Part shown: piece by piece, positions 2,454 to 60,710 of the stretch | How the letters are laid out: every line of letters starts with the position of its first letter | Numbering within the stretch: the first letter of the stretch is position 1 | Assembly: GCF_010211765.1 (NCBI RefSeq) | Contig: NZ_PDWO01000003.1 | Span: 1-64,000, forward strand | Source of the DNA: Pseudoxanthomonas kaohsiungensis | Lineage (GTDB): Bacteria > Pseudomonadota > Gammaproteobacteria > Xanthomonadales > Xanthomonadaceae | Length of the DNA stretch: 64,000 nt | Reading direction: 5' to 3' | Program-made: the position numbers and the translations under genes | The notes under the pieces: model-generated | The model's input: only the letters and a program-made list of their open reading frames with translations | Database searches by the model: none | Told to the model about the DNA's origin: nothing

Positions 2454-4160
2454 ATGCCCCACGACACCAGCCTGATCGACATCGTCGCGGTCGGCCTCGG
2501 CCTGGCCTTCGTGCTCGGTGCGCTGGCCAACAAGCTGCGCCTGTCGCCGCTGGTGGGCTACCTGCTGGCGGGCGTGTTCGTCGGCCCATTCACGCCCGGC
2601 TTCGTCGCCGACCAGGAGATCGCCACCCAGCTGTCGGAAATCGGCGTGATGCTGCTGATGTTCGGCGTCGGCCTGCACTTCTCGCTGGACGACCTGCTGG
2701 AGGTGAAGTGGATCGCCATTCCCGGCGCGGTCGCGCAGATCGCGGTGGCGACCCTGCTCGGCATGGGCCTGGCCTGGGCGATGGGCTGGCCGCCCCTGCA
2801 CGGGTTCGTGTTCGGACTGGCGCTGTCGGTGGCCAGCACCGTGGTCCTGCTGCGGGCGATGGAGGAGCGCCGCCTGCTGGACACCCGCCGCGGCCGCATC
2901 GCGGTGGGCTGGCTGATCGTCGAGGACCTGGTGATGGTGCTGGCGCTGGTGCTGCTGCCGGCGCTGGGCGGGGTGCTCGGCGAGGGCGGCACCCGTCCGG
3001 AGGACACCACCACCGGTGCGATCTTCGCCGCGCTGGGCCTGACCCTGCTCAAGGTCAGCCTGTTCGTGGCGGTGATGCTGCTGGTCGGGCGGCGGGTGAT
3101 CCCGTGGACGCTGGAGCGGGTCGCCGGCACCGGTTCGCGCGAACTGTTCACCCTGGCGGTGCTGGCGATCGCGCTGGGCGTGGCGTTCGGCTCGGCGGCG
3201 CTGTTCGGCGTGTCGTTTGCGCTGGGCGCGTTCTTCGCCGGCCTGCTGCTCAACGAATCCGAGCTCAGCCACAAGGCCGCCAGCGACTCGCTGCCGCTGC
3301 GCGACGCGTTCGCGGTGCTGTTCTTCGTCTCGGTGGGCATGCTGTTCGACCCGCGCATCCTCGTCGAGCACCCGTGGCAGGTGTTGGGCACGCTGGCGAT
3401 CATCCTGGTCGGCAAGTCGGTGGCCGCGTACTGGATCGTGCGCGCGTTCAAGCACCCCACCGATACCGCGCTCACCATCTCCATGAGCCTGGCCCAGATC
3501 GGCGAGTTCTCCTTCATCCTCGCCGGGCTGGGCGTGTCGCTGCGGATCCTGCCGGAAACCGGGCGCGACCTGGTCCTGGCCGGCGCGCTGCTGTCGATCC
3601 TGGCCAATCCGCTGCTGTTCGGCTGGCTGGACCGCCGCCAGGCGCGCCTGCGCGCGCTGGAACCCGAGCCGGCGCCGGTCGAACCACCGCCCGGGCCGTC
3701 GCTGGTGCCCGGCAACCACGCCATCGTGGTCGGCTACGGCCGGGTCGGCAGCGAACTGGCCAGCGTGCTGCGCGAGCGCGGCGTCAACGTGCTGGTCATC
3801 GACAACGACAAGGACCACATCGAGCGGGCGCACGCGGCCGGCTTCCCCGGCATCCGCGGCAATGCGGCCGCCGACCGCGTGCTGGCCGAAGCCCACCCGG
3901 AGTCGGCGAGCATCGCGATCCTGGCGATCCCGCAGCCGCTGGAGGCGGGCGAGGCGATCGCCAAGCTGCGCGCGATCAATCCGGCGCTGCCGGTGCTGGC
4001 GCGCGCGCACAGCGAGGCCGAGGTGCGGCACCTGCTCGCCCACGGCGCCGACGGCGCGGTCCTGGCCGAACGCGAGCTGGCCTATTCGCTGGCCGAGATG
4101 GTCATGTCCACCCCGACCTTCCGCTACGCCGCGCGCGGCGGCGTGGTGCCGCCGGTGTAG
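2454..4160 (+). CDS. ybaL: YbaL-type CPA2 monovalent cation:proton antiporter
   Basis: This is a 568-residue inner-membrane antiporter of the KefB/YbaL (CPA2) type, probably exchanging K+ or Na+ for H+. The first ~400 residues form about twelve hydrophobic segments with the family-typical ends VGYLLAGVFVGP and GLALSVASTVVLL. A cytoplasmic TrkA-N (RCK) nucleotide-binding domain follows from about residue 420, with the Rossmann glycine motif VVGYGRVGSELA near 425. The length fits E. coli YbaL (about 558). There is no glutathione-gating clue such as a KefF partner. The stop codon TAG at 4158-4160 is the GTAG head of a REP element, so the last codons run directly into the repeat. Confidence 0.88.
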   Translation: MPHDTSLIDIVAVGLGLAFVLGALANKLRLSPLVGYLLAGVFVGPFTPGFVADQEIATQLSEIGVMLLMFGVGLHFSLDDLLEVKWIAIPGAVAQIAVATLLGMGLAWAMGWPPLHGFVFGLALSVASTVVLLRAMEERRLLDTRRGRIAVGWLIVEDLVMVLALVLLPALGGVLGEGGTRPEDTTTGAIFAALGLTLLKVSLFVAVMLLVGRRVIPWTLERVAGTGSRELFTLAVLAIALGVAFGSAALFGVSFALGAFFAGLLLNESELSHKAASDSLPLRDAFAVLFFVSVGMLFDPRILVEHPWQVLGTLAIILVGKSVAAYWIVRAFKHPTDTALTISMSLAQIGEFSFILAGLGVSLRILPETGRDLVLAGALLSILANPLLFGWLDRRQARLRALEPEPAPVEPPPGPSLVPGNHAIVVGYGRVGSELASVLRERGVNVLVIDNDKDHIERAHAAGFPGIRGNAAADRVLAEAHPESASIAILAIPQPLEAGEAIAKLRAINPALPVLARAHSEAEVRHLLAHGADGAVLAERELAYSLAEMVMSTPTFRYAARGGVVPPV

Positions 4161-4254
4161 GAGCCCATCTTCATGGGCGACACGGGCGTCGGAACCACGG
4201 TGCCGTCGCCTGCGCCCGGGGGCGTCGGGTCGCCCATGAAGATGGGCTCCTACA
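4156..4254. repeat. REP pair (BIME) after ybaL, C-type/C-type
   Basis: Two inverted GTAGGAGC-headed hairpins flank a 47-base spacer. Both stems are GCCCAT/ATGGGC, making this the only C/C pair in the window. The left head contains the ybaL stop codon. Confidence 0.9.
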
Positions 4255-4332
4255 AGGCTTCGCCGCGATTTCCTACCGGCGTCGTGCCGGCGGTTCAGCA
4301 CCGCGGCCACGCATGCCCGCTATCCTTTGCGC

Positions 4333-6183
4333 ATGCAGGAACTCCAAGACAGGCGCGCCCGCGTCGCCGATCCCGGCGCGGCCGCCGATGCCCCGGCCGT
4401 GCTGCGCCGCGTATTCGGTTTCGACGCCTTCCGCGGCCCCCAGCAGGCGATCGTCGAGCACGTGACCGCCGGCGGCGACGCGCTGGTGCTGATGCCCACC
4501 GGCGGCGGCAAGTCCCTGTGCTACCAGGTCCCGGCGCTGCTGCGCGACGGTACCGGGCTGGTGGTCTCGCCGCTGATCGCGCTGATGCAGGACCAGGTCG
4601 AGGCGCTGCGCCAGCTCGGCGTGCGTGCGGCCTACCTGAATTCCACGCTGGACGCCGAGCAGGCCCGCCAGGTCGAACGCGACCTGCTCGACGGCCAGCT
4701 CGACCTGCTTTACGTCGCGCCCGAGCGCCTGCTCACGCCGCGCTTCCTCTCGCTGCTCGAACGCAGCCGGATCGCGCTGTTCGCGATCGACGAGGCGCAC
4801 TGCGTCTCGCAGTGGGGCCACGACTTCCGCCCCGAGTATCGCGAGCTGACCGTGCTGCACGAGCGCTGGCCGGACGTGCCGCGCATCGCCCTGACCGCCA
4901 CCGCCGACCCGCCGACCCGGCGCGAGATCGCCGAACGGCTGGCGCTGGAGGACGCGCAGTGCTTCCTCAGCTCCTTCGACCGCCCGAACATCCGCTACTC
5001 GGTGGCGCACAAGGACAACCCCCGCCGGCAGCTGGTCGACTTCCTCGCCGGCCATGCCGGCGAGTCCGGGATCGTCTACTGCCTGTCGCGGCGCAAGGTC
5101 GAGGAGACCGCGGAGTTCCTCGCCGGCCGCGGCATCGCCGCCCTGCCCTACCACGCCGGCTTGCCGGCGCAGGTGCGCGCGGACAACCAGCGCCGCTTCC
5201 TGCGCGAGGACGGCATCGTGATGTGCGCGACGATCGCCTTCGGCATGGGCATCGACAAGCCCGACGTGCGCTTCGTCGCGCACATGGACCTGCCCAAGTC
5301 GATCGAGGGCTATTACCAGGAGACCGGCCGCGCCGGCCGCGACGGCGAGCCGGCCGAGGCCTGGATGGGCTACGGGCTGGGCGACGTGGTGCTGCTGCGG
5401 CAGATGATCGAACAGGGTGAAGCCGGCGAGGAGCGCAAGGCGCTGGAGCGGCGCAAGCTCGACCAGCTGCTGGGCTTCTGCGAATCGGCGATGTGCCGCC
5501 GCCAGGCACTGCTGGCCGCATTCGGGGAGGCCCACCCGGGCGCCTGCGGCAACTGCGACAACTGCCTGCAGCCGGTCCGCACCTGGGACGCGACCGAGGC
5601 CGCGCGCAAGGCGCTGAGCTGCGTCTACCGCACCGGCCAGCGCTTCGGCGCCGCGCACCTGATCGACGTGCTGCGCGGTGCCGACACCGAGAAGGTGCGC
5701 CAGTTCCGCCACCACGAACTGTCCACCTACGGCATCGGCACGGAACTGGACGCCAACGCCTGGCGCAGCGTGTTCCGCCAGCTCGTGGTCGCCGGCGTCC
5801 TGGAGGTCGATGCCGAAGGCCACGGCAGCCTGCGCCTGGGCGCCGCCGCCCGGCCGGTGCTGCGTGGCGAGCAACCGGTCCACCTGCGCGAGGAACCGGC
5901 GCGGACCCGCGTCGCGCGCGGCGGCGAGCGGCGCAGCGAAAGCACGCTGCACGTGGAGGCCGGCGACCGCCCCCTGTTCGACGCGCTGCGCGGCTGGCGC
6001 GCGCAACTGGCACGCGAGCAGAACGTGCCGGCCTACGTGATCTTCCACGACCGCACCCTGCGCGACATCGCCCAGTTGCGACCTGCATCCCTCGGCGAAC
6101 TGGCCCGCGTGGGCGGGATCGGCGGCAGCAAGCTCGGCCGTTACGGCGAGTCGGTGCTGGAGGTCATCCGCGAGGCGGGTTGA
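4333..6183 (+). CDS. recQ: ATP-dependent DNA helicase RecQ
   Basis: RecQ is a 3'-5' superfamily 2 helicase acting in recombination and stalled-fork repair. The 616-residue protein has Walker A PTGGGKS near residue 56, DEAH near 153, the RecQ motif region, and motif [12 protein letters not shown]. The RecQ-C-terminal zinc cysteines follow near 380-405 (CESAMC, CGNCDNC), then a winged helix, and an HRDC domain from about residue 544 to the end. The length matches E. coli RecQ (about 609). I chose ATG 4333 over the in-frame TTG two codons earlier. It stands alone between a REP pair and the convergent lhr gene. Confidence 0.95.
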
Positions 6184-60507: not shown

Positions 60508-60598
60508 GAGCCGATTGATCGGCGACCCGACGCCGCCGGCACAGGCGACGCCCGGCTTCTCCAGACTCCCGGCCCGCCCCTCGATGGGCTCCAGCAGG
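60503..60598. repeat. REP pair after the aminotransferase gene, right half decayed
   Basis: The left G-type REP (GCCGATTGATCGGC) is intact and its head gives the gene's stop codon. The right half is reduced to TCGATGGGCTCCAGCAGG, recognisably C-type. Confidence 0.7.
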
Positions 60599-60613
60599 CA
60601 AGCCGCCACGACG

Positions 60614-60710
60614 GTGGCGGGAGCCGATCCCATTGGCGACATGGGCATCGGGATACGTGCGAGTCGCGCGTGCCGACCGCGTCGGGTCGCCGATGAAATC
60701 GGCTCCTACA
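60614..60710. repeat. REP pair downstream of thiL, G/G type
   Basis: The left half lacks the GTAG head (GGGAGCCGATCCCATTGGCG). The right half is an intact short-loop G-type. Both stems are GCCGAT-like, so the element departs from the C/G rule and may be a recombinant. Confidence 0.7.

Follow-up and report, generated by a model that had tools for sequence, protein, structure and literature searches.

The question raised by this 64,000-nucleotide stretch of Pseudoxanthomonas kaohsiungensis DNA is why the repetitive extragenic palindromic (REP) elements found in it stand in inverted pairs that nearly always join two unlike stems. The whole stretch, with a G+C content of 70.7%, is here called the window, and it corresponds to G000:C33:1-64000 of a 3.76-Mb draft genome of 85 contigs. 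The stems occur in two forms, C and G, one compensatory stem pair apart, and an earlier note on this DNA had read the C/G pair as a single polar mobile unit. A survey carried out across the genome has revealed that a tandem array appears to require mixed (C/G) stems in this genome, yet mixed stems are not sufficient for an array, and the rule is not universal. The kind of element is known, and the link of stem mixture with arrays is new.

Stem types and tandem arrays

The exact hairpin pattern was matched 149 and 154 times on the two strands of the genome, and a reversed-pattern control gave 0 and 0. The GTAGGAGC hairpins are not due to chance, because 303 exact matches stand against none in the control. 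The copies, which are many in the genome, have the 5' GTAG, the palindromic stem and the short loop of REPs. They read GTAG-GA-stem-GAC, in which GTAG is followed by two unpaired bases and the stem by a tail of three, as in the GTAG-1 definition (PMC3733652), and from the textual description in that paper these class-1 elements are assigned to the GTAG-1 type. As in REP doublets forming hairpins (REPINs), inverted REPs were found head-out at near-fixed spacing, 127 of 138 pairs being 88-102 bp long, which bears out genome-wide the narrow length described in the earlier note. The 28 mixed arrays, with 2-6 units in alternating orientation, are like bacterial interspersed mosaic elements (BIMEs). 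Judged from their sequences, the elements are REPINs and BIME-like tandem arrays around an intact gene encoding a REP-associated tyrosine transposase (RAYT).

The class-1 survey combined pair searches, 60 fetched stretches and the window, covering 271 of the 303 exact REPs, with pairs that contain one degenerate REP being under-sampled on later contigs. It yielded 138 head-out pairs at 89 loci. Counted by pairs, C/G was ahead (93 of the 138, with 19 C/C, 23 G/G and 3 with a scrambled stem). Counted by loci, there were 45 C/G, 18 C/C and 23 G/G, compared with random expectations of 42.9, 19.1 and 24.1 (p=0.64), the type tables omitting three of the 89 loci that have a scrambled stem, two of the three in the window. 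The comparison that the earlier note had itself set for its pairing claim, C/C and G/G together against C/G, has been run in this way, and by locus the claim that C/G pairing is non-random fails (45 of 86 loci). When only clusters of two REPs were considered (n=51, of which 47 were head-out with both stems typed), C/G was depleted, with 14 C/C, 11 C/G and 22 G/G loci against 8.1, 22.8 and 16.1 expected (p=0.0004).

Stem mixture followed the arrangement of the loci. With an array defined by a next pair located at most 400 bp away, array loci were mixed in 28 cases and same-type in one, and solitary loci were mixed in 17 cases and same-type in 40 (p=1.2e-9). The same distribution was obtained outside the window only (mixed to same-type, 21:1 in arrays and 12:39 in solitary loci, p=6e-9), after merging loci with related flanks, which include a group of six arrays with a longer repeat in common (21:1 and 14:37, p=4e-8), and when scrambled pairs were taken as same-type (p=3e-10). 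In 32 of the 38 clusters with at least three REPs, the two types were divided completely by strand, all REPs of one type being on the plus strand and all those of the second on the minus strand.

Spacer, polarity and folding of the pairs

The spacer, which had been described as variable between loci, has a consensus that is common across the genome to C/C, G/G and C/G loci, with a mean best-orientation score of 22.5-29 by class and of 3.2 (s.d. 3.3) for shuffled spacers. Pairs longer than 105 or 110 bp were omitted from the spacer, polarity and folding tests. Spacers of C-C, G-G and C-G loci could not be separated by stem type (p of 0.24, 0.52 and 0.55), and those of mixed loci varied more among themselves (mean score 0.19 versus 0.23 and 0.28). 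This likeness across stem types is easier to reconcile with interconversion than with a long separation of lineages, and the proposal of separate lineages for C-C, G-G and C-G obtained no support from the spacers.

The element is polar and consists of an A-side REP, a conserved spacer and a B-side REP. Relative to the spacer, the C stem occupied the ACGGGCGTCGG side and G the opposite side at 28 of 29 callable mixed loci and, at a looser cut, at 32 of 34; the spacer could not be oriented clearly at 15 mixed loci with the strict cut and at 17 loci, counting every type, with the looser one. A test independent of the consensus, with spacers read from C to G, found them alike in a single direction for 41 of the 43 loci (permutation 0/20000), so that the polarity claimed for the C/G pair stands, although its exclusive link to that pair does not, C/C and G/G pairs sharing the same polar spacer. 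The stem states present are C-G, C-C and G-G, and the fourth state, G-C, is nearly absent: solitary class-1 loci arranged by spacer side were 9 C-C, 15 C-G, 19 G-G and 0 G-C (p=0.0025). In addition, the loops of the two arms were alike in 17 of 23 G-G cases (7.5 expected, permutation 0/20000) and in 13 of 17 C-C cases (8.1 expected, p=0.013). The missing G-C state and the matched loops are the outcome expected if one arm is copied onto the other from a C-G start. The predicted energy of the arm-to-arm duplex was about -29 kcal/mol for C-C and about -25 kcal/mol for G-G, and for C-G about -15 kcal/mol in arrays and -14 kcal/mol alone.

A second REP class and a related genome

A second RAYT gene is located on contig C14 (L003 1306-2290), in a region that holds a tandem array of period 94, and its product is 36% identical to the RAYT of the window. 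It goes with a second REP class (GTAGAGCSGGGC), unrelated to class 1, whose REP sequence, GTAGAGCSGGGCTYGCCCSGCT, shows a C/G switch in the stem as in class 1. The class-2 pairs found were 44 gg, at least one cc and 40 mixed, the lists of gg and c-left mixed pairs being whole and the cc count a lower bound. Class-2 arrays were mixed in 8 cases and same-type in none, and solitary loci were mixed in 16 and same-type in 45 (p=9e-5), the starts of the closest two gg pairs being 916 bp apart. The spacer alignments took in 43 gg and 15 solitary mixed pairs of class 2 (of 44 and 16). The consensus-free polarity test of class 2 gave one direction at 16 of 23 loci in this genome (permutation 35/20000) and at 35 of 42 when the genomes G004 (same genus) and G012 were added (permutation 0/20000).

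A third class was found in Pseudoxanthomonas daejeonensis, with 14 pairs: both arrays were mixed (one of them by the loop only, and counted so after being seen), all four same-type pairs were solitary and two mixed pairs were solitary as well. The pattern used for this genome covered pairs of 109-139 bp, and a longer mixed pair beside its RAYT gene (L065 3668-3816) is uncounted. Class 1, searched in 59 other genomes with the C/G pair pattern only, was represented by one pair in one genome.

Mixed pairs and the RAYT genes

The RAYT gene of the window (22522-22998, minus strand) is a full frame of 158 aa, and its product scored 127.5 bits against the REP_Tyr_transpos model NF047646 (cut-off 80), over profile positions 1-146 of 146. 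The protein contains MPDHGHW, which we take to be the HUH motif, and ARYI, presumably with the catalytic tyrosine; the Tyr column is invariant in the alignment. The gene is intact by its sequence, cleavage of the cognate REP by its product and mobility of the REPINs as a unit being predicted properties. Its own REPs flank it on both sides, as a tandem array of three C-G pairs and an extra C REP that adjoins the gene (22078-22452, plus strand) and as a C-G pair on the opposite side (23120-23218, plus strand).

The frequency of C-G loci is higher in the vicinity of the cognate RAYT gene. The window contains 12 of the 45 mixed class-1 loci and one of the 41 same-type loci (p=0.002, or p=0.02 with scrambled pairs taken as same-type). 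For class 2, the contig of the second RAYT gene, C14, contains 5 of 24 mixed loci and 0 of 45 same-type loci (p=0.004), and the RAYT contig of P. daejeonensis carries 8 of the 10 mixed pairs detected in that genome.

The window RAYT is 80% identical to a P. daejeonensis protein and 77% identical to a protein of Pseudoxanthomonas jiangsuensis. The frames on either side of its gene are presumably YbgC-like and PilB-like, one each. By eye, the same YbgC-like frame can be recognised in the DNA after the P. daejeonensis RAYT gene; the RAYT locus therefore seems to be old, while the REPs differ.

Two other genes were observed in passing. The RAYT of Pseudoxanthomonas suwonensis J47 (L067 3001-3474) has Q at the position of the first HUH-motif His, and the 6.5 kb examined around its gene contain no GTAGGAGC head. 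A third Y1_Tnp protein of the genome studied here (G000:C8:466-792, L001; 335 aa) reached 59 bits with the RAYT model (cut-off 80), and the hairpins listed from the 2.3 kb around it include no REP of class 1 or class 2; the frame beside it is, we assume, IS3-type integrase-like.

Origin of the stem states

The explanation that is tentatively favoured, with a probability approaching an even chance, is that a polar C-G founder has been preserved in tandem arrays, its arms being rewritten to match each other in scattered copies. The C-G state would be the founder, and arrays would grow in place when a C-G unit is tandemly duplicated together with a piece of neighbouring DNA, a process that copies the unit without refolding it, so that C-G would be preserved. 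Scattered copies would pass through the fold-back of one arm on the other, either in a single-stranded intermediate of transposition or through a template switch in replication. The mismatched arm would then be rewritten to fit its partner, giving C-C or G-G, both of them end states, and G-C would be unreachable. Same-type pairs, because they are perfect inverted repeats, would be poor substrates for tandem amplification in this lineage, or poor survivors of it. The narrower proposition that each passage through a folded single strand tends to turn C-G into C-C or G-G, with amplification keeping the polarity, is possible but doubtful. In published work, the arms of inverted repeats are said to be homogenised when the template is switched between them (PMC8604942), and the same is said of quasipalindromes in Escherichia coli (PMC7202029).

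Several observations weigh against the favoured explanation, most heavily the solitary mixed pairs of G004, the Xanthomonas arrays, the lack of rewritten units within arrays and the restriction to one state per locus. The evidence comes from draft assemblies, with one state per locus. One cluster is same-type, formed by two C/C pairs 340 bp apart (C11:43173), and the mixed arrays contain no unit of the same-type kind, an absence which arm rewriting alone leaves unexplained. The linkers of the 29 arrays resembled the C-side outer flank in 4 cases, the G-side flank in 4 (a count that includes the C/C cluster) and both in 5, and in 16 of the 29 they resembled neither. A long arm-to-arm fold was predicted by DNA folding for 82 of 89 C-G pairs too, so that the mismatch would weaken the fold and not abolish it. 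The spacers of window loci were no more alike than others (p=0.27), and a local origin of these loci from a single copy close to the RAYT gene is thus unsupported; the nearness test relies on a window picked for its many pairs, and the RAYT gene of P. jiangsuensis has same-type pairs on either side. Class-2 pairs in G004 were mixed in 14 of 17 cases, and in G012 in 5 of 11 among the pairs listed, none of them in an array in either genome, which indicates that mixed pairs can scatter yet stay mixed, a result unpredicted by rewriting. In two Xanthomonas genomes (a third, G063, was omitted), searched for two REP types one loop base apart, there were 6 mixed arrays, 5 same-type arrays and 6 with both, and solitary loci were mixed in 15 cases and same-type in 19 (p=0.73 at a 250-bp cut and 0.50 at 400). 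Inverted repeats with matching stems are thus not excluded from arrays everywhere.

Some simpler proposals were discarded on these data. A general rule for every REP family is ruled out by Xanthomonas, and the idea that mixed pairs always form arrays by the solitary mixed pairs of G004. That mixed arms prevent a single long hairpin does not agree with the long fold predicted for the same 82 of 89 C-G pairs, which are set apart solely by their pairing energy. Neither a fixed growth direction of arrays (four linkers on the C side against four on the G side) nor a local spacer lineage in the window obtained support.

An unlikely but serious alternative is that purging alone shaped the pattern, every REPIN duplicating and arrays of perfect inverted repeats being lost via cruciform cleavage (SbcCD) and replication slippage, so that the mixed ones remain. 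Such purging would account for mixed arrays in two classes, it agrees with an arm pairing that is 10-14 kcal/mol weaker in mixed pairs, and it extends to arrays the idea of heterodimer protection outlined by Di Nocera and colleagues (PMC3733652). As it makes rewriting unnecessary, the solitary mixed pairs of G004 pose no difficulty for it. However, purging alone leaves the missing G-C order, the loop matching, the C-G depletion at two-REP loci and the nearness to RAYT genes unexplained, and Xanthomonas retains same-type arrays.

Two life styles of the pairs, in which same-type pairs transpose because their matched arms fold into a RAYT substrate and mixed pairs only amplify locally, would explain why the former are scattered and solitary and the latter more local and tandem. 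In Pseudomonas fluorescens mixed doublets are rare, and reported excision events were interpreted as a putative folded intermediate (PMC3116915). This alternative is considered improbable, since the spacers are unseparated by stem type, contrary to what separately moving families would give, 17 C-G loci are solitary (12 of them outside the window) and the G004 pairs are mostly solitary and mixed.

An artefact of a draft assembly, or of one array counted repeatedly, could be suspected from the 85 contigs and from pair counts inflated by arrays, but it is very improbable, because the tests were run by locus and with related loci merged, the second REP class gave the same result, and the two Xanthomonas assemblies show that same-type arrays can appear in assemblies of many contigs. 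Least credible of all is the view of the earlier note, in which the C/G pair alone is the mobile unit, with C/C and G/G as rare exceptions, since same-type pairs occupy 41 of the 86 loci in class 1 and 45 of the 69 in class 2, C/C and G/G being as common as C/G by locus, in spite of the fixed polarity and narrow length in its favour.

If the explanation by a C-G founder and rewritten arms is correct, the stem state of a REPIN would record its last mode of copying, moved or duplicated, and mixed pairs around a RAYT gene would mark a living source. A stem state that records the copying mode would be a marker of REPIN mobility obtained from sequence alone. REPs are widespread in bacteria, and a genome in which two unrelated REP classes each form both like and unlike pairs makes the puzzle of unlike pairs testable.

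Elements of the window and related observations

Fifty-three GTAGGAGC heads are present in the window, and each opens a REP hairpin by eye, except the head at 50084. With up to four mismatches tolerated per REP, the pair finder gave 28 head-out pairs at 15 loci, and the two others of the 30 inverted pairs previously counted fall below its threshold. The predominance of C/G in the window was confirmed (25 of the 28 pairs), together with one C/C pair and two pairs with one scrambled stem. Lengths were 93-102 bp, plus one of 114; the values of 95-104 and 116 given before seem to include one flanking base per end. Seven tandem arrays hold 20 of the 28 pairs, so the pairs are not independent of each other, and the 27 of 30 unlike stem pairs from which the earlier note had drawn its argument, although real as an excess, come largely from tandem arrays in a window that also holds a RAYT gene.

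The C/C exception noted before at 4156-4254 was found as a solitary homodimer at 4157-4253 (no strand assigned). Single C-G pairs, besides the one beside the RAYT gene, are located at 14816-14915, 33833-33929 (with 3 mismatches in total) and 59216-59312 on the plus strand, and at 37177-37271 on the minus strand. Besides the array that adjoins the RAYT gene, tandem arrays of C-G pairs were found on the minus strand at 15641-15879 (two pairs, that at 15641 degenerate), 18751-19198 (three pairs with a period of 176 and 80-bp linkers like the C-side flank), 28301-28512 (two pairs) and 29133-29468 (three pairs), and on the plus strand at 30489-30826 (three pairs) and 35663-36115 (four pairs with a period of 118). 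The scrambled left stem reported at 57689 was located at 57690, paired with a G REP (57690-57782, no strand assigned). The pair read as G/G at 60614-60710 is G/G-like at 60617-60709 (no strand assigned), with a degenerate left stem. Single REPs are a C REP at 26010-26031 (minus strand) and a G REP at 60504-60523 (plus strand). The REP at 22431 has a degenerate partner visible in the flanking DNA, and no partner of the REP at 26031 was seen in the surrounding DNA inspected.

Six mixed arrays elsewhere in the genome (C16:8008, C16:12341, C16:14359, C55:16059, C5:92023 and C11:125041) have flanking DNA in common, with 85-96% identity in the longer matches, which extend over about 155-235 bp. One of the flanks includes GGCCGGGGGTGTCGCGGGAGCGGACAGGGATGTCC, and these arrays may be part of a longer composite repeat. 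Ten pairs, six of them C/C, are longer overall (121-143 bp) and perhaps form a subfamily; they are located at C11:42285-43756, C11:106202, C7:279, C33:108501, C8:64977-66089 and C82:5163. In an Rfam scan of the window, class A RNase P RNA (53734-54086) and a tRNA (14000-14072) on the minus strand reached the gathering score, and nothing else in the scan did so.

Comparison with known systems

The class-2 REPs are like those of Stenotrophomonas, which have an 8-bp stem directly at GTAG (PMC3686654), and they have their own RAYT; their sequence is GTAGAGCSGGGCTYGCCCSGCT, and the likeness is to the stem as described for that genus. Two different REPs that alternate in orientation along tandem rows and flank a RAYT gene, as found here, are described in PMC2817692.

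With the GTAG-1 REPs described by Di Nocera et al. in 2013 (PMC3733652), the class-1 elements share head-head dimers and heterodimers arising by complementary stem changes. In enterobacteria the dimers are reported in that paper to consist exclusively of unlike elements, and because they are always unlike, the contrast with same-type solitary pairs would be invisible there. The preference for heterodimers is said to lack an obvious explanation (PMC3733652). The heterodimers studied here are tied to arrays, polarity and distance to the RAYT gene, and no such tie was found in the text available from that source. Nor was the array rule found stated in the REP literature searched, in the available portions of open-licence papers.

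The system of P. fluorescens SBW25 (PMC3116915) is like the present one in its inverted REPs with a spacer, its preferred spacings and its RAYT genes beside REPIN clusters, and also in its tandem clusters that take in flanking DNA and its arrays of two mixed REP groups. As far as the sources were available, the published observation that comes closest to the array rule is that of its GI-GIII tandem arrays, in a genome with few mixed doublets. Unlike in SBW25 as described there, the two forms in P. kaohsiungensis are a single compensatory change apart and their mixed pair has a fixed spacer polarity, and the distinction between mixed and same-type pairs follows that between arrays and solitary loci in two REP classes.

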